A stretch of DNA of 39,009 bases from a virus. The DNA lies in IMG/VR virus record IMGVR_UViG_3300009184_000088, positions 1 to 39,009 of that record; one strand, given 5' to 3'. The position numbers and the translations under genes were made by a program. The notes under the pieces are model-generated. The model saw only the letters and a list, made by a program, of their open reading frames with translations. It was not told where the DNA came from and did no database searches. Positions 1-20,566 of the stretch are shown here, one piece after another (within the stretch, counting starts at the first letter, position 1; each line of letters begins with the position of its first letter).

Positions 1-201
1 AATACCCTTCAGGTCCCATTCCGTTTTTATCCGTGTCTTGCTGCTGGTCTCGCTTACTATATTGCCATGAAGAAGGCCCCCGAGCGGGTTCAACTCCTTA
101 AGGCTGTATATGAAGAAGAGTTTGAGCGCGCAGCGGGTGAGGATCGTGACAGAGCATCTTTGTCACTAACCCCTGTCCAGAACTTCTATCGGGTGGTCTA
201 A
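1..201 (+). CDS. Phage neck/head-completion structural protein, C-terminal fragment
   Basis: The reading frame is open from the first base to the TAA at 199-201 and gives about 66 residues, so the gene starts outside the window. The fragment has the pattern LPFRFYPCLAAGLAYYIAMK (shown as far as allowed), then an acidic helix with EEEFERA and EDRDRAS. From memory this resembles the C-terminal part of short-tailed-phage neck/adaptor-type proteins, which end in an 'aggregate helix, EDR' pattern. It is followed directly by a small zinc-ribbon gene and a second adaptor-like gene, which supports a role at the portal-tail junction. The exact position in the virion cannot be decided from the fragment. 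Translation stops one base before the next ATG at 202. Confidence 0.6.
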   Translation, partial: NTLQVPFRFYPCLAAGLAYYIAMKKAPERVQLLKAVYEEEFERAAGEDRDRASLSLTPVQNFYRVV

Positions 202-513
202 ATGGCGCGTCATGCCACTGGCTATCAGTCAGAAGCCATATGCGACCGATGCGGTCAGATGTACTATTACACGCAGTTGAAGCGTGAATGGCAGGGCTTG
301 CGCACGTGTCCGGAATGCTGGGAGTCAAAGCATCCGCAGCTTGACCCTATCTATCCTCCGACGGAACCTCAGGCTCTGGCCAACCCTCGTCCTGACCGCA
401 TCGAGCCGATGGACGTTCCGGTTGGTCAACAGATCTTCCCGTTTATTGAGAATACCTCTACCCAAGGTGTCACAAGCGTTGGTATTGTGACCGTTACGAT
501 TGGGAGCCCGTGA
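202..513 (+). CDS. Small phage zinc-ribbon protein
   Basis: A 103-residue protein. Two Cys pairs, ICDRCG near residue 14 and CPEC near residue 37, form a CxxC-x(n)-CxxC zinc ribbon; the remainder is proline-rich and probably disordered. Small proteins of this kind sit between neck genes in many uncultured short-tailed phages, but no function is established to my knowledge. The gene begins right after the stop of the preceding gene, and its TGA (511-513) shares its last base with the ATG of the adaptor gene, so the three are likely translated as a unit. It could be a minor virion part or an assembly factor. Confidence 0.75.
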   Translation: MARHATGYQSEAICDRCGQMYYYTQLKREWQGLRTCPECWESKHPQLDPIYPPTEPQALANPRPDRIEPMDVPVGQQIFPFIENTSTQGVTSVGIVTVTIGSP

Positions 514-1148
514 TGGCATGGACATACGCAACTTTGGTGCAGGCGATCAAGGATTGGACGGAATATGATGAGACGACGTTCAACCAGAACATCGACACGT
601 TTATTCGCAACTGCGAAGAACGCATTATTTACGCTGCTCAGATGGAGGTGTTCCGCAAAAACGTCTCCGGATCGTGCTCGTCCGGAAACCAGTATCTGGC
701 TGCGCCGAGCGACTACTTGTCGTCCTACAGTCTCTCGATCACGTCCAGTGGTTCCAAAGTGTTCCTCCTAAATAAGGATGTGGAATACCTTCAAGAGTAC
801 AATCCGACAGGCGCAACAGGCGTTCCAAAATATTATGCCGCCTTTGACGTGGATAACTTCATCCTCGCTCCTGTTCCTGCCTCCAGCTACACGGCCGAGC
901 TTCACTATTACTATCGCCCAGAATCCATTGTCACAGCCGGGACGACGTGGCTCGGAACCTATGCCGAAGAAGCAATGCTTTACGGTTCCTTGTCAGAAGC
1001 TTACACCTACATGAAGGGCGAAAACGACCTTCGCCAGATCTACGAAAGCCGCTTTATTGAATCAGTCAGCCGCCTCAAGAACCTCGGTGAGGGTCGTGAA
1101 AACCTCGACGCTTATCGTGATGGCCTGACAAGAGTGAAGGCCAACTGA
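513..1148 (+). CDS. Phage head-tail adaptor protein
   Basis: A 211-residue protein resembling the adaptor proteins that form the ring between portal and tail in short-tailed phages (SU10-like adaptor family). Visible signatures are the N-terminal TYATLVQAIKDWTEYDE helix, a central beta-rich segment with YLAAPSDYL and a C-terminal all-helical part with WLGTYAEEAMLYGSL, KGE-DL--IYESRF and NLGEGR. An in-frame GTG lies three bases upstream at 510, but the ATG at 513 overlaps the upstream stop as TGATG and has GGGAG in front of it, so it is preferred. The stop at 1146-1148 overlaps the next ATG in the same way. The family call is from motif memory. Confidence 0.75.
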   Translation: MAWTYATLVQAIKDWTEYDETTFNQNIDTFIRNCEERIIYAAQMEVFRKNVSGSCSSGNQYLAAPSDYLSSYSLSITSSGSKVFLLNKDVEYLQEYNPTGATGVPKYYAAFDVDNFILAPVPASSYTAELHYYYRPESIVTAGTTWLGTYAEEAMLYGSLSEAYTYMKGENDLRQIYESRFIESVSRLKNLGEGRENLDAYRDGLTRVKAN

Positions 1149-1441
1149 TGTCGTGGGTTAATCCGGGTCAAGCTGAGGTGATGAAGGTCGATGTGGCCAC
1201 TACCTCTGGCAAAGGTCATCCGCCTGAGTTTTGGGCGCACAGATGCGTTGAGCGTCTGATACAGGTCTCTGAAAACGCCCCTCCCGAAATCCGGGAACAG
1301 GCGCTGGCTTTCAGAGATCAAATGGAACAAGTCATCCTGTTTCACGTGAAACGTGCTATACAGAGTGATAGGACAACGGTTCAAAATGCAGTCTCGGAAG
1401 CAGGGCAACCGCAGCTTGCCGAACTTCTCAGGAGGGTATGA
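1148..1441 (+). CDS. Small helical phage protein, unknown function
   Basis: A 97-residue, mostly helical protein with no cysteines and the pattern PPEFWAHRCVERLI (one Cys within), then a segment with DQMEQVILFHVKRAI. I recognise the arrangement (adaptor gene, short helical gene, beta-rich gene) from many metagenomic phage genomes, but no function is known to me. The ATG overlaps the adaptor stop (TGATG) and the TGA at 1439-1441 overlaps the following start, so expression is tied to the neck module. A minor virion or assembly protein is likely. Confidence 0.7.
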   Translation: MSWVNPGQAEVMKVDVATTSGKGHPPEFWAHRCVERLIQVSENAPPEIREQALAFRDQMEQVILFHVKRAIQSDRTTVQNAVSEAGQPQLAELLRRV

Positions 1442-1893
1442 TGGCTTTTACTGGCAACTTTATGTGCACCTCCTTCAAGCAGCAACTGCTTGAGGGCGCT
1501 CACGATTTCCGCTCTTCGGGCGGCGACGCTTTTTACATTGCGCTGTATACCAACAGTGCCTCGTTTACGGCAGCGACAACGGCCTATACGGTAACGAACG
1601 AAATTACCAACACGTCCGGCTCGGCCTATGTCGCTGGCGGTGGTCTGCTTTCCAACGTCAACCCGACGACAAGTGGCACGACTGCCTTCACCGACTTCGC
1701 CGATGAGACATGGTCGTCCGCGTCCTTCACGGCCCGCGGCGCGATGATCTATAACAGCGCCCCGGCGCACACCTACACGAACCCGTCGGTTGTGATCCTC
1801 GACTTCGGCTCAGACAAGACGGCTTCGGCTGGCGACTTCACTGTCGTTTTCCCGACAGCCAACTCGACCGACGCTATCATCCGCATTGCGTGA
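1441..1893 (+). CDS. Beta-rich phage structural protein
   Basis: A 150-residue protein rich in Thr, Ser, Ala and Gly with alternating beta strands (FYIALYTNSASF, VTNEITNTSGSAYVAGG, FTDFADETWSSASFTARGAMIYN). These are typical of a recurrent family of small virion proteins next to tail fibres. Two adjacent ATGs exist at 1438 and 1441. The AGGAGG at about 1430-1435 is only two bases from the first, so the second, which overlaps the upstream stop as TGATG, is chosen. No catalytic motif is visible. A tail-tip, decoration or fibre-attachment role is likely but not proven. Confidence 0.7.
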   Translation: MAFTGNFMCTSFKQQLLEGAHDFRSSGGDAFYIALYTNSASFTAATTAYTVTNEITNTSGSAYVAGGGLLSNVNPTTSGTTAFTDFADETWSSASFTARGAMIYNSAPAHTYTNPSVVILDFGSDKTASAGDFTVVFPTANSTDAIIRIA

Positions 1894-1899
1894 TGATCC

Positions 1900-2769
1900 G
1901 TGGCCGATGCTGTCGTAGCCTTTGAAGGTTGGAACCGCTCTGCCGGATGGGGTGAACTCCCCTTCGGCAGCGGCGCGGTCACTATTGGGCTTGCGACAGG
2001 ATCGGTTGGTACAGTTACCGTAGCGGCAGGGGCCTCGGCCTCTGTTACGGGGGTCTCGGCAACGGGGGCTGTCGGTACAGTCGCCGTTGCCGTTTCCGCC
2101 ATTGTCAGCGTCACTGGCCTGTCCGCCACAGGTGATGTCGGCAGCGTCTCGGTTACAGGCGTCGCCAATGTTGACGTCACTGGCGTTTCCGGGACGGGTC
2201 AGGTTGGCTCTGTTGCGGCAGCAGCCTCCGCCAATGCTCCTGTCACGGGCGTCTCAGCCACCGGACAAGTCGGCTCTGTCACAGTCATAGGTCTTGCCAA
2301 CGTCACGGTCACAGGTCTCTCAGCCACCGGACAGGTGGGAGACGTCACGACACGTACCGTCAATTACGTTGACGTCACTGGCGTTTCCGGGACGGGTCAG
2401 GTTGGCTCTGCCACCGTTACTGCTGCCGCAAATACCAACGTCACTGGCGTTTCTGCAACTGGAAGCGTTGGTTCTGTCTCGGTTGCTTTGTCTGCTAGTG
2501 CCTCCGTTACCGGAGTTTCTGCAACTGGAAGCGTTGGTTCTGTCTCGGTTGCTTTGTCTGCTTCCGCTAATGTCACCGGGGTTTCGGCGACGGGTCAAGT
2601 TGGTTCTGTCACAACCAACTATAGTGCCAACGTGTTTGTTGCAGGGGTCTCCGCAACAGGGTATGTTGGACAGGTCCTTGTGTGGGGTCAAATAACCCCT
2701 GACCAGAACCCGTCATGGGCCGGAATCGCCCCTGCTCAATCACCCACTTGGACACCGATAGCCGCCTAG
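1900..2769 (+). CDS. 22-residue-repeat virion protein (VTGVSATGxVGSV repeats)
   Basis: A 289-residue protein with a GTG start at 1900, six bases after the previous stop. After a short N-terminal segment (AFEGWNRSAGWGELPFG) it consists of about ten clear copies and one degenerate copy of a 22-residue unit whose core is VTG[VL]S[AG]TGxVGSV. The C-terminus (QITPDQNPSWAGIAP, then a second NPSW-like copy) is a different, proline/tryptophan-rich tail. The regular Val/Thr/Gly periodicity suggests a beta-solenoid or stacked beta-hairpin stalk. No function is assigned, but its position before the tail fibre suggests a fibre, spike or decoration protein. One copy of the same repeat core also ends the protein at 9405-9698. 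Perfect DNA repeats inside make copy-number change by recombination plausible. Confidence 0.75.
   Translation: MADAVVAFEGWNRSAGWGELPFGSGAVTIGLATGSVGTVTVAAGASASVTGVSATGAVGTVAVAVSAIVSVTGLSATGDVGSVSVTGVANVDVTGVSGTGQVGSVAAAASANAPVTGVSATGQVGSVTVIGLANVTVTGLSATGQVGDVTTRTVNYVDVTGVSGTGQVGSATVTAAANTNVTGVSATGSVGSVSVALSASASVTGVSATGSVGSVSVALSASANVTGVSATGQVGSVTTNYSANVFVAGVSATGYVGQVLVWGQITPDQNPSWAGIAPAQSPTWTPIAA
2170..2212 (+). repeat. 43-bp perfect direct repeat, copy 1 (copy 2 at 2368-2410)
   Basis: Forty-three bases beginning GTTGACGTCACTGGCG recur identically at 2368-2410. The 198-bp spacing is exactly three 66-bp (22-codon) units, so recombination between copies would delete three protein repeats without shifting frame. 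Confidence 0.9.
2449..2496 (+). repeat. 48-bp perfect direct repeat, copy 1 (copy 2 at 2515-2562)
   Basis: Forty-eight bases beginning GTTTCTGCAACTGGAAG recur identically at 2515-2562. The spacing is 66 bp, one 22-codon repeat unit. Identity at the DNA level, not only in protein, points to a recent unit duplication. Confidence 0.9.
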
Positions 2770-2779
2770 GAGCCGTTGT

Positions 2780-4450
2780 ATGGCCAGCACCTATTCAACA
2801 AACTTGAAGATTGAATTGATTGGGACCGGAGATCAGTCCGGCACGTGGGGAACCACGACTAACACCAATCTCGGAAGCCTTATCGAAGAGGCGATTGCGG
2901 GCTATGTCACGCAGGCCGTGACCGATGGCGCTGCGACCGTCTTGACGATCCCCAACGGGTCAAGCTCCAATGGCCGCAATTACGTCATCGAGCTCACAGG
3001 CGCGTTGACCGCTGCTCGCACCGTCGAGGTTCCGGCTGTTGATAAGCCATACATCTTCTTCAACAACACGACGGGTGGCTACGCCGTCACCGTGAAGGTC
3101 TCGGGCCAGACGGGCGTGACCATTGCCAACGGCAAGAAGGCCATTGTCTACACCAACAGCACCGACGTCATTGAAGTCGCGAACGCTCCGGTCACGGAAG
3201 CTGGTACGCAGACGCTGACGAACAAGACGCTTACCAGCCCAACAATAAACACTGCGACATTGTCTAGTCCAACAGTTACTGGTGTGGCGACTTTTGCCGC
3301 AGGCACAGTCTCGGCTCCTGCCATCACGACGACGGGCGACACGAACACAGGTATCTTCTTTCCTGCGGCCGACACGATTGCCTTTGCTGAAGGTGGTGCG
3401 GAAGCGATGCGCATCGACTCCTCCGGCAACGTGGGGATTGGCAACTCAATTCCGGGATCATTTGCTGGCACAGTCAAGCTAGTTGTCGGTTCAGCCGCGA
3501 CTACTACAACTCCCGGAGCTGTCACCGTTTATAGCGGTAACGCAACATACGGCGGTCTGTATTTTGCTGACGGTACGGTTGGAGATCAGCTATACCGTGG
3601 AGCGGTTGAATACAACCATTCAACAGACGCGCTTTTGATGTATTCGGCTGGTGCAGAACGCGCCCGCATCGACAGCAGCGGCAACGTGGGGATCGGGACG
3701 AGTTCGCCAACAAGCATTTTGGATGTTCGTACATCAAACCCAACACGCGGAATTATTGCCAGCGTTGTCAACACTGCAACTTCTTCTCAAACTGGTGCGC
3801 AAATTCGCATCACGCAGGGCGGTATTGAAGATTGGGTTATTGGTCAACCCGCAGCAGTAAGTGCTTTTTCTATTTGGTCTGGCCGCAGTGCTAGCTCTGA
3901 TGGAACTGAACGTATGCGCATCGACTCCTCCGGCAACGTGGGGATCGGCACCGCTTCCCCTGCTGCGTCTTTGTCAGTCGTTAAACAGACAACTGCTTTG
4001 TCAGGAACAAGTAATGCCTATGGTGTCTACGTATACCCGACATCAACAGGCGCATCCTACATCGACGCCATCACCAGCAGCACAGGTACGACAACTCTTA
4101 CGCTCCGCACATATAACAACGGAACGTACAACACCTTTGCAATGGATGCCTCTGGCAACGTCACTGCTTCTGGCAACGTCACCGCCTACTCAGACGCCCG
4201 TCTGAAAAAGAACGTCAGCACCATCGACAATGCTCTGGCTCTTGTTGAAAAGATGCGCGGCGTTCGCTACGACCGCATCGACAGCGGCAAGGCTGGTGTT
4301 GGCGTCATCGCGCAAGAAATGCAGGAAGTTGTGCCGGAAGTTGTTCACGAAGGTGAGAACCTGTCGGTCGCATACGGCAACCTTGTCGGCGTCCTGATTG
4401 AAGCCGTGAAAGAACTGTCTGCCCGTGTGAAGGAACTGGAGGCTAAGTAA
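2780..4450 (+). CDS. Tail fibre with C-terminal S74 intramolecular chaperone
   Basis: A 556-residue fibre protein. The N-terminus (residues 1-150, with LIGTGDQSGTWGTTTN and the QTLTNKTLTSPTI segment) is typical of phage fibre shafts. Three copies of R-IDSSGNVGIG follow at about residues 212, 295 and 379. The C-terminal 85 residues are a peptidase S74 domain, starting at SDARLKKN with the catalytic Ser471 and Lys476. In characterised members the chaperone folds the trimeric fibre and then cuts itself off just before this serine. The last residues (VGVLIEAVKELSARVKELEAK, here shortened to its helix) form the terminal coiled coil. It is the likely receptor-binding or receptor-degrading fibre of the virion. 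The glycine-rich tail gene begins one base after its stop. Confidence 0.9.
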   Translation: MASTYSTNLKIELIGTGDQSGTWGTTTNTNLGSLIEEAIAGYVTQAVTDGAATVLTIPNGSSSNGRNYVIELTGALTAARTVEVPAVDKPYIFFNNTTGGYAVTVKVSGQTGVTIANGKKAIVYTNSTDVIEVANAPVTEAGTQTLTNKTLTSPTINTATLSSPTVTGVATFAAGTVSAPAITTTGDTNTGIFFPAADTIAFAEGGAEAMRIDSSGNVGIGNSIPGSFAGTVKLVVGSAATTTTPGAVTVYSGNATYGGLYFADGTVGDQLYRGAVEYNHSTDALLMYSAGAERARIDSSGNVGIGTSSPTSILDVRTSNPTRGIIASVVNTATSSQTGAQIRITQGGIEDWVIGQPAAVSAFSIWSGRSASSDGTERMRIDSSGNVGIGTASPAASLSVVKQTTALSGTSNAYGVYVYPTSTGASYIDAITSSTGTTTLTLRTYNNGTYNTFAMDASGNVTASGNVTAYSDARLKKNVSTIDNALALVEKMRGVRYDRIDSGKAGVGVIAQEMQEVVPEVVHEGENLSVAYGNLVGVLIEAVKELSARVKELEAK

Positions 4451-4451
4451 G

Positions 4452-5417
4452 ATGCCTACCTATCTTCCTTCATCCGGCGCAATTTCCATGAACGATATTA
4501 ACGGGGCCTTTGGCCGCGGTAATAATCTCAATGCATATCGTGGCACGACCTACTACACCTCTACCGCTGGTCCGTTCACCTTCTCGTCCGGAGCCATAGA
4601 CTTTCAAGATTTCTATGGAACAGGGCCGAGTCCAAGCACGACCTACACCGTTGCTACAGGCGGCACTGTTACAACTGATGGAAACTATAAAGTCCACACC
4701 TTTACTGGCTCTGGAACCTTTAGCGTTTCGCAGGTCGGCACAGATTCCAGTGCTACATATCTGATTATCGCTGGTGGCGGTTCTGGAGCTGGTAATGCAG
4801 GCGGCGGGGGTGGTGCTGGTGGTTACAGAACAAGCACAACAACACTTTCAGCCACCAACTATACAATTACAGTTGGCGGCGGCGGTGCTACCACTTATTC
4901 AACAGCGCAAGGTAACAATGGCAGCGACTCCTCTGCTTTTAGTATAACATCTACTGGCGGTGGCGGCGGCGGGACAGGCAACGCTAATGGTAATTCTGGC
5001 GGATCTGGCGGCGGTGCTGGTTCTTCTGGAGTGACTATAAGGAGCGGCGGTGCTGGCACTTCTGGTCAGGGTAACAACGGCGGCAGTGGTTATCTCTCTG
5101 GGAAAGATACAGGTGCTGGCGCTGGCGGCGGGGCTGGCGCAGCAGGTGAAAATGGTAAAGCAGATAGCTCAAATACATCAGCGGCTGGCGGTGCGGGTTC
5201 TGCATCATCAATTACAGGGTCTTCTGTGACACGAGCTGGCGGTGGTGGCGCTTACTTTAATGGTGCTGGCGGCGCTGGCGGCGGCGGTGCTGGCGGTAGC
5301 GGTGCGGGTTCTCCCGGCACAGCAAATACTGGCGGCGGCGGCGGCGGTGCTGGGCCCGGGAATTACTCAGGCGCTGGCGGCTCCGGTGTTGTCATCATCC
5401 GTTATGTATATCAGTGA
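4452..5417 (+). CDS. Glycine-rich phage tail protein
   Basis: A 321-residue protein. Residues 1-57 (LPSSGAISMNDINGAFG and FSSGAIDFQDFYG) match an N-terminal tail-attachment domain common in marine and alphaproteobacterial phages. Residues about 65-105 form a beta domain (YKVHTFTGSGTFSV), and the rest is dominated by Gly tracts (GGGGGAGGY, GGGGGGTG) ending in GSGVVIIRY. This resembles the glycine-rich tail/adhesin domain family, in which Gly runs pack as polyglycine helices and loops carry receptor specificity. It sits right behind the S74 fibre, so it probably forms a second adhesin or fibre tip. The repetitive Gly codons (GGC GGC GGT) favour replication slippage. Confidence 0.8.
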   Translation: MPTYLPSSGAISMNDINGAFGRGNNLNAYRGTTYYTSTAGPFTFSSGAIDFQDFYGTGPSPSTTYTVATGGTVTTDGNYKVHTFTGSGTFSVSQVGTDSSATYLIIAGGGSGAGNAGGGGGAGGYRTSTTTLSATNYTITVGGGGATTYSTAQGNNGSDSSAFSITSTGGGGGGTGNANGNSGGSGGGAGSSGVTIRSGGAGTSGQGNNGGSGYLSGKDTGAGAGGGAGAAGENGKADSSNTSAAGGAGSASSITGSSVTRAGGGGAYFNGAGGAGGGGAGGSGAGSPGTANTGGGGGGAGPGNYSGAGGSGVVIIRYVYQ

Positions 5418-5425
5418 GAGTGAAC

Positions 5426-5815
5426 ATGGCTCATTTTGCTAAACTTGACGATCAAAATGCGGTGCTTGAGGTTGTTGTTATCAACAACAGCGACATTGAT
5501 AATTTGCCGTTTCCAGAGAGTGAGCCTGTAGGAATTGCGTTCTGTCAAAATTTATTTGGTACAGACACGATTTGGAAACAAACCAGTTATAATGGAAATT
5601 TCCGTCGTCAATATGCAGCGATTGGCAGTTCTTACTATGCACCAGCGGATGTTTTTGTAAGTCCACAACCGTATCCGTCTTGGACATTCCAAAGCTCAAC
5701 AGCTAATTGGGAGCCTCCTGTCCCAATGCCATCTGTTCCTGCAAACTATATTGCGGTTTGGAGCGAAGAGTTCGTAGATTGGGATATTGTTCTGGCTCCA
5801 GAGGCTACGATATGA
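5426..5815 (+). CDS. Conserved marine-phage tail-module protein (MAHFAKL family)
   Basis: A 129-residue protein starting MAHFAKLDD with the later signatures AFCQNLFG, WKQTSYNGNFRRQYA and FVSPQPYPSW. I recognise this family from cyanophages and other marine phages, where it lies among tail fibre genes; its function is not known. A GTG at 5414 would add four residues, but the ATG at 5426 aligns with the family start and has GAGAG upstream. Its TGA overlaps the ATG of the next gene as ATGA (5812-5815), implying coupled translation. By eye the stretch 5414-6585 is richer in A and T than the flanking virion genes, suggesting a separate origin. Confidence 0.8.
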   Translation: MAHFAKLDDQNAVLEVVVINNSDIDNLPFPESEPVGIAFCQNLFGTDTIWKQTSYNGNFRRQYAAIGSSYYAPADVFVSPQPYPSWTFQSSTANWEPPVPMPSVPANYIAVWSEEFVDWDIVLAPEATI

Positions 5816-6585
5816 AAACTGTCCTCACTTTTTCTGGCGGCATAGATAGCACTTATGTGCTTTGGAAGCTTTTGTCAGAAACGCAAGACGAAATTACGGC
5901 TGTTTTTGTAAGCACTGACGGAGTAACTCAATCTGAGTTTAACCGCTATGACCTTCGTGCTTTTGGTGCATCTGGTCAGTCTACCGTTGATGCAGCAGCG
6001 CAATGGCTACAATCAAACATCAGGCAGTTTACTTATTCCGTCCAACCATTTGATGCTCAATACACTCCTCGTGGAGTTGAGAACGTCAATAGCCCGCAAA
6101 CTTATTTGGCTCGTTTTGCCGCTCCACGCATTAACTCAGGCGAGTTTGACCGTTTTGTTTGTACAAGCGAGAAAGAAAATGATGGGTGGTCAAATGGTGG
6201 AACAATCAATGTTCGCCGTCCCGGCTCTATGGCTGCGCGTGATATTTTTACTCAAAGTGCCACACGCGGCTCTATTGAGTTTCCTCTCATTGCTGCAAAT
6301 TACACGCAAGCAAATGCTTTGACGGAAATGCCAAGCGATCTTCTTGACATTGTTGATCACTGCACTTTGGAAGATAATTCTTATAAGTGTAAGAAAAAAC
6401 GCTGGTTCCAAAATCTTTTGGATCAAGGAAACACACCAGCTCAATGCTATGATGCTTGGTATGCAAGTTGCACCAATGCTTCTGCTGGTAAATGGTTCAG
6501 CATGAAGTTTTGGATTGAGAACACTCAGCCAACAGATCAATTTACTTGGGCAATCCCAGAGTGGCCGACATCCTATAGCGTGTAA
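5812..6585 (+). CDS. QueC-like PP-loop ATPase (adenine nucleotide alpha-hydrolase fold)
   Basis: A 257-residue protein with a classic N-terminal PP-loop, TFSGGIDST at residues 6-14, used by this superfamily to adenylate a substrate. The arrangement resembles QueC (7-cyano-7-deazaguanine synthase): P-loop, later basic/aromatic segments, and a C-terminal DHC...YKCKKKRW at residues 182-198, where QueC has its zinc-binding cysteines. Only Cys184 and Cys193 fall in that segment; Cys212 and Cys220 might complete a site. An upstream in-frame start would add 35 residues, but the ATG at 5812 overlaps the preceding stop (ATGA) and gives the canonical KTVLTFSGG start. No other deazaguanine genes are in the window, so the substrate is unknown; its place among tail genes is unusual. 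Confidence 0.7.
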   Translation: MKTVLTFSGGIDSTYVLWKLLSETQDEITAVFVSTDGVTQSEFNRYDLRAFGASGQSTVDAAAQWLQSNIRQFTYSVQPFDAQYTPRGVENVNSPQTYLARFAAPRINSGEFDRFVCTSEKENDGWSNGGTINVRRPGSMAARDIFTQSATRGSIEFPLIAANYTQANALTEMPSDLLDIVDHCTLEDNSYKCKKKRWFQNLLDQGNTPAQCYDAWYASCTNASAGKWFSMKFWIENTQPTDQFTWAIPEWPTSYSV

Positions 6586-6594
6586 GAGGACGTT

Positions 6595-7536
6595 ATGATT
6601 TTGAGGGGGATCATAGCGTTAGTAGCACTAGCTACTGCGGCAAGCGCAAACGATCTGAAGATCGTGACACATACAAACACGGGCGGGTTTACAATCCACG
6701 CCCGTGTTTTTGCTCAACATCTGCAAAAACATACGCCGGGACAAACGGTATCTATCAAGATCGTTCCGGGTGCTGCTGGCATTGCTGCGGCCAACTACCT
6801 GTACAATGTTGCGCCAAGGGACGGCTCTGAGTTTGCCACTATCAATACAAAGGTGCTGACGCAGGGCCTCATCAAAAACGATGACGTCAAATACGACCTG
6901 TCCAATTTTGGCTGGCTGGGTTCGTCTGTGGACGGCCGTAGGGAACCTTTTGTGCTTTGGGCCAAAGCAGGATCAGATCGACTTGTTGCGGGATCCGAAG
7001 GCGGGTTTGCAATCAACCATATCAAACTGGTCAATAGCATCCTTCGATGGGACATGCGGGAAGTTGTCGGCTATGCCGAATCCGGTCAGGTCAGGATGGC
7101 TTTTGAGAAGGGTGAAATTAACCTTGTCGCCTACAACCTGACAGGCGTCCGCACGACAGCGCCAGCTTGGTTTAAGGACAGTTCCGTTTTGCCGATGGTC
7201 CAATACGGTGCGGGCCTAACGAGGCATCCTGACCTACCTTTTGTACCAACCGTCTTTGAGCTCTCTTCTTCCAAAGAGGACCAAAACCTTATCTCGACCT
7301 TTGAGCGGGTCTTGGTTTTGGGGAGGGCCTTTGCCGCACCGCCAAATGTTCCAGAGGATAAATTGGCGCGTCTCCGACTCTTGTTTGAGCGTGTTGTCAG
7401 TGACCCGGAATACCAATCGGACGCCGCCAAAATCGGTGTTATCGTCAGCCCAGTTTCTTGGCGGGAAGCCGAAGAACTGGTAAAAGAGGTGTCTATGACG
7501 CCTCTTCAGACGGTGGCTCGTTTGAAGCAGTTCTAA
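6595..7536 (+). CDS. TctC/Bug-family periplasmic solute-binding protein
   Basis: A 313-residue protein with a Sec signal peptide (MILRGIIALVALATAASA, cut expected after Ala18) followed by the family pattern: LKIVTHTNTGGFTIHARVFA, then IKIVPGAAGIAAANYL, then APRDGSEFATIN. This parallels the N-terminal half of TctC/Bug proteins (PF-GG-D--AR, ENRPGAGG, A-PDGYTL). The C-terminal half has the expected FVPTVFEL and PEYQSDAAKIGV segments. Cellular members deliver tricarboxylates or other carboxylates to TctAB transporters. No TctA or TctB gene is present, so it could plug into a host transporter, act as a scavenger, or have been recruited to the virion. It lies nine bases after the PP-loop gene and just before the nozzle gene. 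Confidence 0.8.
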   Translation: MILRGIIALVALATAASANDLKIVTHTNTGGFTIHARVFAQHLQKHTPGQTVSIKIVPGAAGIAAANYLYNVAPRDGSEFATINTKVLTQGLIKNDDVKYDLSNFGWLGSSVDGRREPFVLWAKAGSDRLVAGSEGGFAINHIKLVNSILRWDMREVVGYAESGQVRMAFEKGEINLVAYNLTGVRTTAPAWFKDSSVLPMVQYGAGLTRHPDLPFVPTVFELSSSKEDQNLISTFERVLVLGRAFAAPPNVPEDKLARLRLLFERVVSDPEYQSDAAKIGVIVSPVSWREAEELVKEVSMTPLQTVARLKQF

Positions 7537-7557
7537 AGTCTCTTTAGGAGAACCCTG

Positions 7558-9405
7558 ATGCCGCTTCAAAAGCTCCAATTCCGACCCGGAATTGTCCGTG
7601 ACCTGACAGGGTACACGAATGAGGGCGGCTGGCGTGTCTCCAACCTTATCCGTTTTCGCTACGGGTTTCCGGAAACAATCGGCGGCTGGGCAAAGTACTC
7701 GACCTCCCAGTTTCTCGGCACGTGCCGTTCCATGCTCAACTGGAACACTCTGTCAGGCGACAACCTGTTGGGTATGGGCACGCACCTAAAATACTACATC
7801 GAGCGCGGGGGTCAGTTTAATGACATCACCCCGATCCGCAGCACGGTTGTTCTGTCCAACCCTTTTACGGCTACAAACGGGTCGTCCGTTATCAACGTAA
7901 ATGCCGTTGGCCACGGATGTACGCAAGGTGACTTCGTGACCTTTAGCGGTGCTGTCAGTCTTGGAGGCAACGTCACCGCAGCCGTTCTCAACAAAGAGTA
8001 TCAGGTCACCTTCATTGATAACAACAACTACTCAATTACCGTGGCCGTTGTTGCCAATGCATCTGATTCCGGGAACGGCGGCTCTTCCGTTACAGCCGCC
8101 TACCAGATCAATACGGGTCTCGACACACAGGTTGGCGGCACAGGCTGGGGCGCAGGCGCTTGGGGGCGTGGCGGCTGGGGAAGTGCAACGACGCTTTCCG
8201 CAACGAACACTCTTCGTTTGTGGTCGCAAGACAACTATGGTGAAGACCTGATCTTCAACGTCCGCAGTGGCGGCGTTTATTATTGGGACGCAACTACAGG
8301 TCTCGGTGTTCGGGGTGTCACTCTTGCTTCGCTTTCGTCTGATCCAACAACGCCGACCCTCGCCTCTCAGGTTCTTGTCTCAGACCGAGATCGACACGTC
8401 ATTGCCTTCGGTGCAAACCAAGGTGGGTCCACGGCCCTTGATCCATTGTCCGTTCGCTTCTCTTCTCAGGAAGACCCTTATACATGGACGGCAACTGCAA
8501 CCAACACCGCTGGCGATCTGCGTCTTGGTAGCGGCAGCGCGATTGTAAAGGCTGTTGAGACGAAGCGAGAAATCCTCATTTTTACTGAGGTTTCTCTCTA
8601 CTCCATGCAATATGTCGGCCCTCCATACACTTTTGGTGTGCAGCTTATTTCGAGCAACATTAGCATCAACGGCTACAACAGCGCGGTCGCTATGGACGAC
8701 ACCGTGTTCTGGATGGGTGACAAAGAGTTCTATGTTTATACTGGTAAGACAGACCCGCTGCTCTGCCCGCTGAAGGATTATGTCTTCAACGATTTTAACA
8801 CCAACGAGCGCGACAAAGCTTTTGCTGCGTTGAACTCTGAGTATAACGAGATCACGTGGTTCTATCCGTCAGCCGCCTCTTCTGAAAACGACCGCTATGT
8901 CACATTCAATTACAAGGAACAGGTCTGGACGTATGGGAATCTTGCTCGCACGGCTTGGCTTGACCATGGGGTCCGCGAATATCCTCAGGCCGCAAGTCCG
9001 GACAATTATCTCTACAACCATGAGTTTGGTACGGACGACGGCAGTACGACTCCGGCAACTCCTCTGAACGCCTACATCGAAAGTTCGCCTCTTGATATCG
9101 GAGACGGCAATCAGTTCTCGTTTGTGCGTCGTATCATTCCGGACGTGACGTTCATCAACGCGACAAATGATCCGCGTCTTGATCTCATCATCAAGACGCA
9201 GAACTATCCGGGATCCAATTACCAGAACGGTTCCGACTCGGAGGTTCTTCGCACGGCCACTGTTCCGGTTGAGCAATACACTCAGGTGAAGGACATCCGC
9301 TTGCGCGGCCGCTCGATCATCCTGCGTGTCGAGAGCAATCGCGTCGGAACGTGCTGGAGACTTGGTTCTCCGCGTATCGAGATCCAAGCGGATGGGCGGC
9401 GCTGA
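7558..9405 (+). CDS. Tail nozzle / DNA-stabilisation protein
   Basis: A 615-residue protein. It opens with LQFRPGIVRDLTGYTNEGGW and NLIRFRYGFPETIGGW, and continues with beta-propeller-like segments (LLGMGTHLKYYI, TLRLWSQDNYGEDLIFN, GVYYWDATTGLGVR, SDRDRHVIAFG). This is typical of short-tailed-phage tail tubular/nozzle proteins (P22 gp10-like, T7 gp12-like role) that close the tail and keep DNA inside until ejection. The C-terminus (FVRRIIPDVTF, LRGRSIILRVES, WRLGSPRIEIQADGRR) is also characteristic. A good AGGAGAA ribosome site lies before the ATG. The stop overlaps the next ATG (TGATG at 9403-9407). Confidence 0.85.
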   Translation: MPLQKLQFRPGIVRDLTGYTNEGGWRVSNLIRFRYGFPETIGGWAKYSTSQFLGTCRSMLNWNTLSGDNLLGMGTHLKYYIERGGQFNDITPIRSTVVLSNPFTATNGSSVINVNAVGHGCTQGDFVTFSGAVSLGGNVTAAVLNKEYQVTFIDNNNYSITVAVVANASDSGNGGSSVTAAYQINTGLDTQVGGTGWGAGAWGRGGWGSATTLSATNTLRLWSQDNYGEDLIFNVRSGGVYYWDATTGLGVRGVTLASLSSDPTTPTLASQVLVSDRDRHVIAFGANQGGSTALDPLSVRFSSQEDPYTWTATATNTAGDLRLGSGSAIVKAVETKREILIFTEVSLYSMQYVGPPYTFGVQLISSNISINGYNSAVAMDDTVFWMGDKEFYVYTGKTDPLLCPLKDYVFNDFNTNERDKAFAALNSEYNEITWFYPSAASSENDRYVTFNYKEQVWTYGNLARTAWLDHGVREYPQAASPDNYLYNHEFGTDDGSTTPATPLNAYIESSPLDIGDGNQFSFVRRIIPDVTFINATNDPRLDLIIKTQNYPGSNYQNGSDSEVLRTATVPVEQYTQVKDIRLRGRSIILRVESNRVGTCWRLGSPRIEIQADGRR

Positions 9406-9698
9406 TGGATGTCCGCCTTATCCCGCCGATCTTTACCCGTGCTCCGGCGCAGTATGACCAGCTTTATTTTAATGATCTGGTCCGCGCTCTGATCAGCTTG
9501 ATCACGTATATCCAAGCACCGGGCGAAGGACGGCAGACCACGATTGTGTTGACCAATCTGGCCAGCAATGATTCGGGCCTTGAACCGGGGACCATCTTCC
9601 AAGTGAACGGCGCTCTCCGGGTCTCCGTTCTCTACAGTCCTTATGTGGCTGGACTGTCCGCTACAGGGCGAGTTGGGTCGGTAACAGTAACAGTCTGA
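9405..9698 (+). CDS. Small tail-associated protein ending in the VxGLSATGxVGSV repeat
   Basis: A 97-residue protein beginning MDVRLIPPIFTRAPAQYDQ with a helical segment (YFNDLVRALISLITYIQ). The start at 9405 overlaps the nozzle stop and is preferred over an upstream start inside the nozzle gene. The N-terminal half resembles a small protein often found after nozzle genes. The C-terminal 17 residues (VAGLSATGRVGSVTVTV) are one copy of the 22-residue repeat that makes up the protein at 1900-2769, 7 kb away. That shared module suggests the two proteins are part of the same structure or exchange segments by recombination. Function unknown; probably a virion part. Confidence 0.7.
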   Translation: MDVRLIPPIFTRAPAQYDQLYFNDLVRALISLITYIQAPGEGRQTTIVLTNLASNDSGLEPGTIFQVNGALRVSVLYSPYVAGLSATGRVGSVTVTV

Positions 9699-9803
9699 GG
9701 CTTGTTTTACTGGTCTCAAAAGGGTAGATTTGTCGGCGAACCCTCAGGCTTTGTCCTGCCCCATCGCCGTGTCGGCGCTTAAAAACGCTCATAGGGAAAG
9801 TCT
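9699..9803 (+). promoter_or_regulatory. Intergenic gap with weak promoter-like element and small hairpin
   Basis: This is one of the few gaps in the late module. TTGTTT (9702-9707) and TAGATT (9725-9730) are 17 bp apart and could be a weak sigma70-type promoter. A 5-bp hairpin CGCCG-TGT-CGGCG lies at 9765-9777. No convincing small gene was found. Promoter strength and use are uncertain. Confidence 0.25.
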
Positions 9804-11357
9804 ATGCAGGGTACAGAGCTTCTTCGCGATCCTAGTTTTGCCCAGACGCTGGAACAATCACCGTTCCAAGCGAAGGATTTGCCGGGTCTATCCACAGCCG
9901 TTGCCGACGCTTTTGAAAAACTTTCCCCTGATCAGCGGAAAGAAATGAAGGCTGTCCTCGACGAACTGGACGATTTGTCGGAACAGGAACTGGAATCGTT
10001 CCTTCGTCTGATTGGATACGTTGAACAGGACCCTAGTCAGTACCCTAAACTGGTCAAGCAACTGGTCGAGACAGGCGCTTTCTCTCCTGAGGACGTTCCC
10101 CAACAGTACGACCCCAACTTGATGGCAATCGTAAAAACCCTTGTTGGTCAAGCACTTAGGCGCGTTCGCGCAGTGTCGTCCCCGACCTTTGCAAAGGGCG
10201 GCATTGTTTCCTTGAAGAAGGAAGCGAAGAAGGTGGCCGCTGCTGGCCGCGGTGGTGACACGATCCTTGCCCACATCAATCCGATGGAAGCCGACATGCT
10301 CAAGCGCATGGGCGGCCGTGGAACGATCAACCCAAAGACAGGTCTCCCTGAGTTTGGCTTTTGGAAGTCGCTGGGTAATATTCTTAAGGTTGGCGCACAG
10401 ATTGTTGGAACGATTGCCCTTTCGGTGATGGGTGTCCCCCCTATTTGGGCAGGCGCGATTGCGGGCGGAGCCACCTCTCTTCTTTCGGGCGCAAAACCCA
10501 TTGATGCCTTGAAGAGCGCCCTTTTGGGTGGCGTCACTGCTGGCATTGGTGCAGGCATCAGCAGCAGCATGGCTGGCGGAAGTTTCTTTGACGGCATCAG
10601 CAAAGGCTTTGTGTCCGGAACAGCCCTCCCCGGCTCAGACCTATTCAAGGAGACCTTTGGAATTGGTGGGGCTGGTGGAGCGGAGGCCGCTGCTAGTGGA
10701 GCAGCGGGTGGAGCAGCGGGTGGAGCAGGAGCCGCCACAAACTTTCCTCCTGTTGGAGAGGCGGGGTCTCTTCCTACGTTTGCAAGAGCCGGAACCCCTC
10801 AGCTACCTATTTCCCCCTCTACCCCTCTACCTTCTGCGTCATCCGGAGTATCCGGTCTCTTTAATAGTGCAGCAAACTGGGTTAAAGCAAACCCGCTGAC
10901 CGCTACGTTGGGTGCTGGCGCACTGCTTCTTGGCATGGGTCAGAAAAAAGAAGAGGTTAAGCCGAGCCTTGTCAGCGGCAGGACCGGAACAGACCTTCTT
11001 AGCGAACAGCCTGCGACCTACGGCTTCAGCACAGCAAACTTTGCTCCTCGCACTCCGCAGGCTGGGACCACCGTTTTTCCAAGCGGTGGTTATATCGCCC
11101 CGACGACACCTATCGGCATGGCACCGACCCCCAACTTTGGTCAGGTCCGCTACCCGACGACAGGCATCATGTCCGTTAAGGCTGGTGGCGCGATCCACGG
11201 TCCGGGGTCCGGGACCAGCGATTCCATTCCCGCTCGCCTCAGCGACGGTGAGTTTGTGATGACAGCCAAAGCCGTCCGCGGCGCAGGCAAAGGCGACCGC
11301 ATGAAGGGTGCTCGCAAGATGTACGAGCTCATGCATAAATTTGAACGGATGGCGTAA
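9804..11357 (+). CDS. Internal virion protein with glycine-zipper membrane segments
   Basis: A 517-residue protein. The N-terminus (about 1-130) is acidic and helical (DELDDLSEQELESFLRLIG). A central part (about 190-310) is Gly/Ala-rich and hydrophobic (IVGTIALSVMGVPPIWAGAIA and GVTAGIGAGISS), suggesting membrane insertion. The C-terminus carries GGAIHGPGSGTSDSIPARL-DGEFVMTAKAVRGAG, a signature (shortened here) found at the end of many phage internal or injection proteins. It probably rides in the capsid and enters the cell envelope during DNA ejection. The ATG follows GGGAAAG. Two bases separate its stop from the next gene, which is also predicted to be internal. Confidence 0.7.
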   Translation: MQGTELLRDPSFAQTLEQSPFQAKDLPGLSTAVADAFEKLSPDQRKEMKAVLDELDDLSEQELESFLRLIGYVEQDPSQYPKLVKQLVETGAFSPEDVPQQYDPNLMAIVKTLVGQALRRVRAVSSPTFAKGGIVSLKKEAKKVAAAGRGGDTILAHINPMEADMLKRMGGRGTINPKTGLPEFGFWKSLGNILKVGAQIVGTIALSVMGVPPIWAGAIAGGATSLLSGAKPIDALKSALLGGVTAGIGAGISSSMAGGSFFDGISKGFVSGTALPGSDLFKETFGIGGAGGAEAAASGAAGGAAGGAGAATNFPPVGEAGSLPTFARAGTPQLPISPSTPLPSASSGVSGLFNSAANWVKANPLTATLGAGALLLGMGQKKEEVKPSLVSGRTGTDLLSEQPATYGFSTANFAPRTPQAGTTVFPSGGYIAPTTPIGMAPTPNFGQVRYPTTGIMSVKAGGAIHGPGSGTSDSIPARLSDGEFVMTAKAVRGAGKGDRMKGARKMYELMHKFERMA

Positions 11358-11359
11358 CC

Positions 11360-12397
11360 ATGGCCGAGACTACAGTCCAAGAACAGATAGTCCGCGAAGC
11401 CCCAGAGATCGAAGCCTATAAGCTTGGTCTTCTGAAGCTTGCCAAAGAGCGGGCCGAAATCCCTGTTGATATCCCTGCGATGCGCGCAGCGGAGATGACC
11501 CCCCAACAGATTCGCGCTCTGGAACTGTCGGGTGCTGGTATCGGTTCTTACGCCCCCTATATGCAGGCGGCTGGTCAGGCTTTTACCAAAGCTGCTGAAG
11601 GTTATGGTGGTCTTCCCCACTACGGTCAGGCTGGCATGGAAGCAGCCACTGGCTATGGTAACTTGGCGACCATGCTTGGTACATCCGGAGCACAGGCCTA
11701 TAACCCGCTCCAAGCCCTTGCTTATATGAACCCCTATCAGGAAGCCGTCACTCAGAAGGCCGTCGAGGAGATGGGCCGTCAGGCTCAAATCCAGCAGCAG
11801 TCTCTGTCGGCACAGGCTGTGAAGGCCGGAGCTTTCGGCGGTAGCCGTGAAGGCGTGCAGCGGGCCGAGCTCGGACGTAATCTTGCAGATGTCCAATCCA
11901 AACGCATCTTGGAAGATTACTTCGCCAACTACAGCCAAGCGCAGAACGCTGCGATGAACGCCTTCGCCAACCAGCAAGCACGTGCTCAGTCGGCGGGTAA
12001 CCTTGCTCTTGGTGCAGGCCAACTCGGCTTGCAGGGCGCGACGCAGGCTGGCGGTTTGCAGCAGGCTAGTGCTGCTGGTATCGGCACACTCGGTCAGCAG
12101 ACCGCGGCCCTTGGTCAACTGCAATCAGGTCTTCAGCAGGGCGACGTTTCGTTCCTGTATAACATCGGTTCGCAGCAACAGCAGCAGCGTCAGAAGGAAC
12201 TGGATGCAGCGCGTCAGACCTCTCTGCAACAGGCCTACGAGCCGTTCCAGCGCATCTCGTTTGTGTCCGACATCTACAAGGGCGCACCGTCGTCGCAACA
12301 GACGATCAGCCAGACAACTGCTCCGTCGCCGTCCCTCGTTTCACAGGTCGCTGGTCTCGGCACAGCCGGACTCGCCGCCTACAATCTTGCGAGGTAA
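11360..12397 (+). CDS. Internal virion protein, Gln/Ala-rich helical
   Basis: A 345-residue protein rich in Ala, Gln and Gly with long predicted helices. Features seen are PYMQAAGQAFTKAAEGYGG, a central MNPYQEAVTQKAVEEMGRQAQ segment, AGAFGGSREGVQRAE, and a Gln-rich stretch (NIGSQQQQQRQKELD). The MNPYQ...V segment with following AGAFGGSR is a recurring signature in internal proteins of marine and freshwater short-tailed phages. It lies between two other internal-protein genes with gaps of two to three bases. The likely role is as a channel or scaffold component of the ejection apparatus; no enzymatic motif is visible. Confidence 0.65.
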   Translation: MAETTVQEQIVREAPEIEAYKLGLLKLAKERAEIPVDIPAMRAAEMTPQQIRALELSGAGIGSYAPYMQAAGQAFTKAAEGYGGLPHYGQAGMEAATGYGNLATMLGTSGAQAYNPLQALAYMNPYQEAVTQKAVEEMGRQAQIQQQSLSAQAVKAGAFGGSREGVQRAELGRNLADVQSKRILEDYFANYSQAQNAAMNAFANQQARAQSAGNLALGAGQLGLQGATQAGGLQQASAAGIGTLGQQTAALGQLQSGLQQGDVSFLYNIGSQQQQQRQKELDAARQTSLQQAYEPFQRISFVSDIYKGAPSSQQTISQTTAPSPSLVSQVAGLGTAGLAAYNLAR

Positions 12398-12400
12398 AAC

Positions 12401-13891
12401 ATGGCCAACGATCCCGTCCTTCAACGCTCGATGTTCCAGAAGCAGACGCCTATTGCGCCGTCTGTCGGTCTTGGTATCGATTCCGTCACCACGCCGGATC
12501 AGAATGCCAAAGCACTGAAGAGCATGTTCCAGCCGACGGTGTCGCTCGGCATGCCGACGCAGATGCTTCAGCAGGAACAGCAGCCTGTTCAGTCGTTCCA
12601 AGAAGGCGGTTTTGCTACACCTCTTGTTGCTCAATACGATTTTCGCAATCGTCGGTATCAGAACCCGCCGTCTTATGCGGAGCGTACAGACCCTGCTCAG
12701 TTTGAGGCGGATCGTCCTGCGAGAGAAGCCGCCGCTGAAGCAGAACGTCTTCGTGCGGAAGCCCGTCTTGAAGAACAGCGGGCTCGCTATGCTCCGGAAC
12801 AGGCTCGCTATGCGGCCGAGGCCGACCGTTATCGTATGCTTAACGCCCAGCGTCGTCAGGCTATTGATGACGCGGACGCTCTTGCCCGTTATCCGGCTCC
12901 AAAAAGCCAATTCCGCAGAGACGTCGAATCTGTTCTCCCTTCTCTTCCGACAGAGGAACGAGTCAGGAAAAATGCAGAGGACTTCGCTCGCATAAGAGAA
13001 GCTCGTCAAAACGCTTTGCAGGAACAACAGACCGCCCTTGAAGATTACCGCAAAGGATCTCCGGGATCTGCGGTTGGGGACTATTTCCGTTCACTGACAC
13101 CGGAAGAACTTAAGGCGCGAGCGGAAGAGCGTGCGGCGGCTGAAAGGAAGCTTGAAGCCGAAGGTGCTAGGATAGGGTCAACCTTTACCCGAAGCATGGA
13201 TGCCGTGGCGGCTCCTCGTCGCGGTGTCGCTTCCCTTGATGTTGCCCGGATGCTTGAAAACGACCGTGCACAAGAACCCCGTATGCCAACGTCTCCCGCT
13301 GAACGTAAGCTTGAAGACACCTCTGTTAAAACAAACCTTGATGACATCAAGGCTGACCGTAGGGCCACGGAGGCTGCTCGAACCTCTGCCGAGCGCCGCG
13401 AGAACATGTTGCTTGCTTTGATGCAGGCTGGCTTTGCTATGGCCGCTGGCCGCAGTCCAAACGCCATCAGCAACATTGGCGCAGGCGGTCAGGCTGGTAT
13501 TGCAGCCTTTGCTTCAATGGAACGCGCCCGTCGCGAGGACGAATCTCTGCGTCGTCGCGAACAGTTGCAGCTCGACATTGCCAAGATGCAGTACGACAGG
13601 GATCCGGAAACCATTCGCACCTATGCCGTTCTTGGCGGATGGACTCCGCAAATGGGTCGCGAAGGTTATCAGGATGCCGTTCGCAAAGGCTTCCAGTTCT
13701 TGCAGAGCAAAGAAGCTCCCAAACAAGCTATGGACATGCTTAAACTGTCTCAGACCGACCCGAACATCCTTACACCAGAACAACGAAAGGCCTATTCGGA
13801 CGTGGTCAACATGGGTATCATGTCTTCTCTTGGTAGAGGCAGCGGCTTCCCCGGTTTCTCCGGCACAGCAATACCTTCTCCAACTAAGTAA
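12401..13891 (+). CDS. Internal virion protein with long charged coiled coil
   Basis: A 496-residue protein. Residues about 100-300 are dominated by Arg/Glu/Ala heptads (AEAERLRAEARLEEQRARYA, then ARAEERAAAERKLEAEG), predicting long coiled coils. Residues about 330-385 contain a conserved-looking MLLALMQAGFAMAAGRSPN followed by GAGGQAGIAAFASMERARR, a pattern I associate with phage internal proteins preceding a giant ejection protein. The start has few alternatives; the ATG at 12401 follows the previous stop by three bases. It is likely an ejected structural protein. Confidence 0.65.
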   Translation: MANDPVLQRSMFQKQTPIAPSVGLGIDSVTTPDQNAKALKSMFQPTVSLGMPTQMLQQEQQPVQSFQEGGFATPLVAQYDFRNRRYQNPPSYAERTDPAQFEADRPAREAAAEAERLRAEARLEEQRARYAPEQARYAAEADRYRMLNAQRRQAIDDADALARYPAPKSQFRRDVESVLPSLPTEERVRKNAEDFARIREARQNALQEQQTALEDYRKGSPGSAVGDYFRSLTPEELKARAEERAAAERKLEAEGARIGSTFTRSMDAVAAPRRGVASLDVARMLENDRAQEPRMPTSPAERKLEDTSVKTNLDDIKADRRATEAARTSAERRENMLLALMQAGFAMAAGRSPNAISNIGAGGQAGIAAFASMERARREDESLRRREQLQLDIAKMQYDRDPETIRTYAVLGGWTPQMGREGYQDAVRKGFQFLQSKEAPKQAMDMLKLSQTDPNILTPEQRKAYSDVVNMGIMSSLGRGSGFPGFSGTAIPSPTK

Positions 13892-13915
13892 CACTTCCCT
13901 CTGCGGAGCCAGAGA

Positions 13916-19363: not shown

Positions 19364-19833
19364 GCACGACAGAAGAGAAGCAAGAAAAGATCGCACTTGA
19401 AATGGCGGCAAACGCCAGCAAAGGCGCACTGGTTGAGAAGATCACGTTTGCTGGTATTCCGATTCTGTTTTCTTGCGTCGTTTATCTTATGAACGCTTTG
19501 TCCACTGCAAACAACGAGATCATTCAACTCAAATCCAAGATCGCTGTGGTGGTGAACGCTGACAACAAAGCGATCCCGCCGCAGGGTACAACCATCGACA
19601 TGGCTCAGATCAGAGAGAACCTCAACGACAAGATCGACAAGGTTGAGCGAGATGCGGCTTTGGCTAGATCTGCGATGACCTTGGACCGTGAACGGTCGAT
19701 GGCGCTTGTTGATAAGAGCCGTCTGGACATGGCGGCCGACGCTGCTCAAGCTCGCGCTGCCATCCGCTATGACATGCTCAAAATGTTTGGTGAGCTTGAT
19801 AAGCGCATCCATTTTCTGGAGCAGAAGAAGTAA
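19360..19833 (+). CDS. Membrane-anchored coiled-coil protein, lysis module (spanin-like topology)
   Basis: A 157-residue protein. Residues about 27-47 (ITFAGIPILFSCVVYLMNAL) form one membrane segment; the following part, after a short linker, is a long charged helix (DKIDKVERDAALARSAM, LDKRIHFLEQKK). One N-terminal membrane anchor plus a periplasmic coiled coil is the layout of inner-membrane spanins (Rz-like), and the gene precedes holin and endolysin genes. No outer-membrane lipoprotein partner with a lipobox was found, so spanin is only a candidate role; a structural or membrane-anchoring role is also possible. The ATG overlaps the preceding stop as ATGA (19360-19363). Confidence 0.55.
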   Translation: MSTTEEKQEKIALEMAANASKGALVEKITFAGIPILFSCVVYLMNALSTANNEIIQLKSKIAVVVNADNKAIPPQGTTIDMAQIRENLNDKIDKVERDAALARSAMTLDRERSMALVDKSRLDMAADAAQARAAIRYDMLKMFGELDKRIHFLEQKK

Positions 19834-20042
19834 TGGACCCGATCACCTTAAAGGTGGTCCTTATTGCTTGGATGCTCGACGTCCAATCAGCAAAGGTCCT
19901 GTACTTCATGCCAATCACAGTTCTTCCGGACGAGGCCACGTGCCAAAAGACGCTGGAGGATTTGAAAGAGACGCACAAAAGAGGCTACGCATACAATCTG
20001 GTTATTCGGGGGGCCTGTCTCCCTGCCAATGTGGGGGGATAA
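19833..20042 (+). CDS. Small protein in the lysis module, unknown function
   Basis: A 69-residue protein with a hydrophobic N-terminal half (LKVVLIAWMLDV, KVLYFMPITVL) and two cysteines (Cys37 and Cys61 region) that could form a disulfide outside the cytoplasm. The ATG shares a base with the previous TAA. A clean lipobox is not present, so an outer-membrane spanin cannot be claimed. I do not recognise the family. Its place between the coiled-coil membrane protein and the holin suggests a lysis or envelope role. Confidence 0.5.
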   Translation: MDPITLKVVLIAWMLDVQSAKVLYFMPITVLPDEATCQKTLEDLKETHKRGYAYNLVIRGACLPANVGG

Positions 20043-20043
20043 A

Positions 20044-20565: not shown

Positions 20566-20566
20566 G

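Follow-up and report, generated by a model that had tools for sequence, protein, structure and literature searches.

The DNA analyzed here is the IMG/VR virus record IMGVR_UViG_3300009184_000088, whose entire length of 39,009 bases we refer to as the window. Based on the sequence, the original prediction had placed two metabolic-looking genes at 5812-7536, between tail fiber genes and a nozzle gene, and our analysis found both ORFs intact and exactly as placed. The first encodes a PP-loop protein (P0001) and the second a binding protein (SBP; P0002). The features of the locus are as follows, with L numbers denoting the fetched loci to which the window was compared:

2780-4450, + strand: S74 tail fiber gene, encoding a C-terminal S74 chaperone; its 3' end (from ~4392 on) is the left edge of the block common to L001
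4392-7532, + strand: exchange block, 76% identical to L001 at the DNA level
4452-5417, + strand: adhesin-like gene, glycine-rich (PF21722), which belongs to the block that is exchanged along with the pair
5426-5815, + strand: phrog_7759 gene, encoding a small fiber-locus protein, a landmark of marine phage fiber loci that usually occurs without the pair
5812-6585, + strand: PP-loop gene (P0001; 257 aa), a predicted QueC-fold PP-loop ATPase with SGGIDS intact and a zinc site reduced to C184/C193
6595-7536, + strand: SBP gene (P0002; 313 aa), a putative TctC-type (Bug-family-like) protein, signal-peptide-like at about residues 1-18
7558-9405, + strand: gene for a nozzle or DNA-stabilization-type virion protein (phrog_3287), with its first base at the right edge of the cassette

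The six genes form an unbroken run on the + strand, with gaps of at most ~21 bp and a Shine-Dalgarno-like sequence at each start. The stop of the phrog_7759 gene and the start of the PP-loop gene overlap in the 4-bp sequence ATGA, both in the window and in several relatives. Promoter- and terminator-like sites within window positions 2600-9600 were no commoner than in shuffled sequences, in line with an operon-like run that includes the structural genes. Cultured homologs of the phrog_3287 product downstream of the pair are annotated as stabilization or tail proteins of the nozzle type. The G+C content is 0.44 for the PP-loop gene and 0.43 for the phrog_7759 gene, with values of 0.52-0.57 in the surroundings. 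Comparison with L001 gave dN/dS values of 0.071/0.645 for the PP-loop gene and 0.069/0.938 for the SBP gene, which indicates that both genes are under purifying selection; because of these values, neither is a chance ORF. Elsewhere in the window, internal repeats at 2100-2420, inside the gene at 1900-2769, differ among the window, L022 and L048. A lysis-like cluster (157, 69 and 178 aa, and a GH108 endolysin) is located at 19360-21082, 12 kb from the pair, while its relatives in L001, L005 and L006 are found directly 3' of the pair.

To characterize the PP-loop protein, relatives were gathered from 41 IMG/VR loci. P0001 alone matched PP-loop families only below threshold and mostly over its first 70 residues, and it matched phrog_1550 (QueC-like) at E 9e-7. 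Among 39 members of the family, 14 matched Pfam QueC (best 2e-9) and 32, including P0001, matched phrog_1550. The AlphaFold model of P0001 had a pLDDT of 92.6, and the best structural matches by VIA-align were QueC, with Z scores of 12.5 (rmsd 3.2, 173 aligned) and 11.9, followed by QatC (11.1), Cap9 (11.0) and, near-equal to these QueC relatives, argininosuccinate synthase (10.8). According to the model, P0001 has a QueC-type fold within the wider PP-loop group, other PP-loop families being only slightly weaker matches. The ATP loop SGGIDS is intact at residues 8-13, as expected from the prediction of a QueC-like ATPase with an intact PP-loop. The canonical C(x)8CxxCxxC zinc site is incomplete, with only C184 and C193 left of its four cysteines, which agrees with the partial site noted in the prediction. 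A four-cysteine motif is kept in 45 of 74 PP-loop family sequences, and the tree places the loss on the well-supported clade of the window. Canonical QueC is defined by the motifs YxQxHxxE, VPxRN and YPDC, which read deazaguanine (PMC13329287, PMC13279940); a motif check over the 39 members found each of them in a single member and none in P0001. Judged by its sequence, P0001 has lost or remodeled its zinc site as well as the motifs that recognize 7-deazaguanine. Because only two of the four zinc cysteines and none of these motifs are present, P0001 does not appear to be a canonical preQ0 synthase, and preQ0 production is unlikely. No match to QueD/PTPS or TGT was obtained in 21 records (the window and 20 others, mostly fragments), consistent with the predicted absence of pathway partners, and a defence-family scan returned only QueC/QatC-type echoes. 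P0001 thus resembles QueC in its Rossmann/PP-loop fold and SGGxDS loop, with many of its relatives keeping a C-x(n)-C-x2-C-x2-C zinc-type motif, but differs in its two remaining zinc cysteines, its missing substrate motifs, the lack of detected pathway genes and its position in a tail locus. PHROGs files phrog_1550 as queuosine biosynthesis, which neither the motifs nor the neighborhood of the window family support.

Further PP-loop arrangements were observed in contigs with T4-like features. Five PP-loop paralogs occupy a single T4-like fiber locus (L020, 6707-12400), two of them with TGGYGS/SGGYGS loops that lack the aspartate and are perhaps inactive. In a T4-like group among L033-L077, neck-like genes stand between a PP-loop gene whose loop reads SSSSDS, which comes first, and an SGGINS paralog, which comes after them, as in L059 (5956-6741 and 10213-11010). 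The binding protein is usually absent from this group but present in L073.

P0002 has no Pfam match, falling below the curated cut-off for PF03401 (TctC). A profile built from 20 SBP relatives aligned over positions 20-306 with the terephthalate-binding protein 8hka (E 1.3e-4), with further structure matches to 7ndr, 2dvz and Bug27. TctC was matched by nine of the 20 relatives, and the SBPs of L022, L053 and L073 score above the Pfam TctC cut-off. Based on the family profile and these typical members, P0002 is a divergent TctC-type binding protein that is undetectable from P0002 alone. The AlphaFold model computed for the SBP with six sequences had a low pLDDT of 43.5 and was not used, so that support for the fold comes from sequence profiles. 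The N-terminus of P0002, judged by eye, contains a hydrophobic stretch followed by an A-S-A cleavage-type site, and a signal-peptide-like start, assessed in the same way, is present in all complete SBP members. The putative export signal suggests a periplasmic location in the infected cell. Both the TctC-type assignment and the export of this protein had been predicted, together with an absence of transporter genes; a search that detects the TctA permease (PF01970) in five control genomes indeed found none in the window record and 20 further records, mostly fragments. P0002 shares with TctC/Bug proteins (PF03401) the signal-peptide-like start, the length, the GG and GAxG loops and the full-length profile match. 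In contrast to them, it lies under Pfam detection, has no TctA in its record and is tied to a PP-loop gene. Since P0001 lacks two of the features that define canonical QueC, and since P0002 scores below the TctC threshold, neither sequence is filed as an ordinary member of its family. Another TctC subclass, which is more typical and exceeds the Pfam cut-off, was observed in the same kind of locus (L086, 5054-5974; L053, 8406-9347), and in L086 it occurs without a PP-loop gene. The gene named 'tctA' in SUP05 viruses was considered and set aside, as it is the permease, identified by a domain match only, and not a PP-loop/SBP pair (PMC4164917).

Searching profiles over all fetched loci revealed 21 distinct contigs, counting the window, in which the two genes occur together; one of these contigs is 58 kb long and has L003 and L005 as its ends. 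L053, in which a Pfam-recognized TctC protein is encoded 1.5 kb from the PP-loop gene, raises the number to 22, and in a 23rd contig (L004) the PP-loop gene is accompanied by an SBP from another family, SBP_bac_6. When non-seed contigs were found by the SBP alone, the PP-loop gene was adjacent in three of four (L048, L081 and L082, but not L086). The arrangement of the two genes varies: the PP-loop gene precedes the SBP gene in the window, L017 and L022 and follows it in L019, the pair is divergent in L023, L025 and L026 and convergent in L031, and the two genes alternate twice in L081. The backbones range from podovirus-like, with a nozzle gene, to contigs in which the pair stands beside what we take, from the look of their sequences, to be T4-like neck genes. 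As a control, fiber loci were fetched by phrog_7759 as a landmark, with up to 5 kb on each side and many loci incomplete; neither gene was present in the best 80 of these 594 loci. Phrog_7759 itself was rejected as a specific third partner, since cultured marine phages often have it while lacking the pair, and these best 80 of 594 loci carry neither pair gene. The coupling of the two genes that had been predicted proved stronger and wider than claimed, extending to an exchangeable cassette in several phage types. Many PP-loop contigs, particularly those of the T4-like SSSSDS-loop group, have no binding protein, which suggests that the enzyme can act without it. In L010 the PP-loop gene is kept and the SBP gene is reduced to its first codons, which are fused to the next gene (4769-5038), a remnant that indicates deletion of the SBP.

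The proposed search for the pair in other phages thus succeeded among IMG/VR contigs (22, with the window), whereas 50,697 records of cultured phages, searched by tblastn with six PP-loop proteins and three SBPs, gave no match. Scans of bacterial and archaeal genomes with the PP-loop and SBP alignments confirmed nothing; the pattern method used reaches close relatives only, which leaves room for a host origin of the pair, and the broad 39-row PP-loop alignment contained no stretch conserved enough for such a scan. The original prediction was to fall if the pair were absent from relatives at this locus or if neither fold were predicted. Relatives do carry the pair here and the QueC fold is predicted with confidence, the TctC-type fold being the part for which the support is of the profile kind.

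Comparison of the window with L001 revealed a single block of related DNA (4392-7532), reaching from the end of the S74 fiber gene to the last SBP codons, and no other match within window positions 1-14000. The pair is 87-88% identical between these two viruses, while the nozzle protein is only 32% identical. The opposite was observed for L048 and L022, each with a nozzle protein 93% identical to that of the window and with PP-loop/SBP identities of 58/54% and 28/29%, respectively; in both, DNA identity with the window sets in again at 7558, exactly where the nozzle gene starts. From these contrasts it follows that the unit of exchange comprises the adhesin-like gene, phrog_7759, the enzyme and the SBP. 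Given that the pair is exchanged together between otherwise different viruses, the two proteins probably function jointly. A Gp38-type adhesin occupies the same slot in L002. Gp38-like genes were observed in this slot at L002 3557-4351 (PF05268), L010 5053-5886 and L012 9701-10495; their products start with MGTANML or MGFANML, resembling the N-terminal MGT of QatB, which may be a coincidence.

The divergence of the two proteins runs largely in parallel, with PP-loop/SBP identities to the window of 88/87, 75/79, 59/62, 57/58, 58/55, 33/35, 34/37, 27/32 and 26/23%; one group departs from this pattern (44-47/60-62%). The Mantel correlation between PP-loop and SBP distances was 0.88 (n = 21); for 13 divergent representatives it was 0.78, and none of 5000 permutations was as high. 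Because the kinship of the sequences inflates this value, the correlation speaks for a shared history and not, by itself, for interaction, and co-divergence alone could come from shared descent of a linked block.

Our preferred explanation, which we regard as quite possible if just short of probable, is that the pair constitutes a co-inherited accessory module of a tailed-phage adhesin locus, swapped with the adhesin-like genes, whose products would work in a joint scheme of capture and activation. Enzymes of the QueC fold adenylate a carboxylate, which is then transferred to ammonia, sulfur or an amine, and TctC proteins commonly bind carboxylates. Both proteins would be produced late, along with the tail genes, and would work in the infected cell: the SBP in its periplasm, the PP-loop enzyme in its cytoplasm, where by analogy with its fold relatives the latter may be an ATP-dependent carboxylate-activating ligase or amidase. 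The SBP would take a carboxylate-type ligand and hand it to a host TTT permease; the enzyme would then adenylate the captured carboxylate and transfer it to ammonia or an amine. The outcome could be an altered adhesin product or an altered cell surface that the adhesin recognizes, both being suggested as beneficiaries because the pair travels with adhesin-like genes. Against this scheme stand the PP-loop contigs that have no SBP, the SBP of L086 that has no PP-loop gene, and the negative search for a phage permease in 21 mostly fragmentary records. A more specific form, in which the QueC-fold ligase and its own exported SBP gather a small carboxylate and conjugate it to the adhesin or host surface, so that receptor recognition is chemically tuned and the tuning swapped with the adhesin, seems improbable in its particulars.

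Two rivals remain live. One, which we consider rather unlikely, is superinfection exclusion linked to the adhesin: the exported SBP, aided by the enzyme, would block or alter the receptor of the neighboring adhesin, and the pair must then change with the adhesin. The joint transfer of the adhesin-like gene, phrog_7759 and the pair in one block, the Gp38-type adhesin in the same slot of L002 and the putative export signal of the SBP are all compatible with this, but the requirement for an ATP-dependent ligase is left unexplained, a TctC-type precedent was not found in the open-licence literature searched, and the best 80 of the 594 phrog_7759 fiber loci do without either gene.

The other, which we judge unlikely, is protein conjugation of the Cap9/QatC kind, in which the enzyme would join a carboxylate, nucleobase-like or otherwise, to the N-terminus of a neighboring tail protein, such as phrog_7759 (always MA-) or the adhesin. 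Cap9 and QatC rank near the top of the structural matches to the P0001 model and share with P0001 the intact ATP loop and the coupling to a neighboring gene; their substrates are the protein products of adjacent genes (PMC13279940, PMC13329287), and the 4-bp overlap of the phrog_7759 and PP-loop genes recurs in several relatives of the window. QatC also resembles P0001 in having lost the deazaguanine-reading motif. The partner here, however, is an exported TctC-like protein in place of QatB or a CD-NTase, defence genes are absent, and the QatC motifs RxRxxx[FY] and CGxCxxRR were not found in P0001. The deazaguanine-reading YxQxHxxE, VPxRN and YxDC are each missing in 38 of 39 members, and phrog_7759 is common without a PP-loop neighbor. 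Nor does the N-terminal glycine rule of QatC and Cap9 (MGG/MGT) seem to be generally obeyed: no neighbor in the window starts with MG, although MG- starts occur in some relatives, in the SBP frame or on a Gp38-like gene.

It is more doubtful that the genes are linked but functionally separate, a variable fiber locus collecting morons that side-by-side position alone keeps together. Such loci do collect other enzymes, and correlated distances arise from shared descent alone; yet neither gene occurs in the best 80 of 594 control loci, and the two genes stay linked when their order and strand differ (L017, L019, L023, L031, L081) and even when the SBP family changes (L004). Less likely than the two live rivals, and in our estimate very unlikely, is ordinary auxiliary metabolism, with a preQ0 synthase for nucleoside modification and a carboxylate scavenger. 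Both folds are metabolic, and pathways of deazaguanine modification in phage DNA with a preQ0 intermediate exist (PMC13329287), but the missing QueD and TGT in 21 mostly fragmentary records, the unmet catalytic and zinc signatures of QueC in P0001, the tail-locus position and the co-transfer with adhesin-like genes argue against it. The original prediction had doubted ordinary auxiliary metabolism, and it was right insofar as canonical partners and substrate motifs are absent. Its suggestion of a virion role, also less likely than the live rivals, found no support and is highly improbable: the genes lie in the same operon-like run as fiber and nozzle genes, but the SBP carries a putative export signal pointing to the periplasm of the infected cell, the PP-loop protein has an enzyme fold, and neither matches a structural-protein family.

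QueC-family proteins were recently found to modify proteins in bacterial anti-phage immunity. The window family places a remodeled QueC fold on the phage side, in an adhesin locus and tied to a putatively exported solute-binding protein, a pair that is undescribed in the open-licence papers searched. Labels such as 'queuosine biosynthesis' and 'tricarboxylate uptake' on genes of this kind in virus surveys are probably wrong. The pair also offers a concrete and testable case for why phage fiber loci gather metabolic-looking enzymes. The loci studied here also gather 2OG-Fe(II) oxygenases, glycosyltransferases and fatty-acid-hydroxylase-like genes. The oxygenases and glycosyltransferases of marine phage fiber loci are likewise enzymes inserted beside adhesin genes, but their chemistry is different, and no tie to an exported binding protein is known for them. 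In L081 (IMGVR_UViG_3300032282_000875), three TctC-like and two PP-loop genes were observed at 4830-10880, a tandem expansion of the pair in which PP-loop and SBP genes alternate on opposite strands, and genes resembling the 2OG-Fe(II) oxygenases of L023 lie in between.
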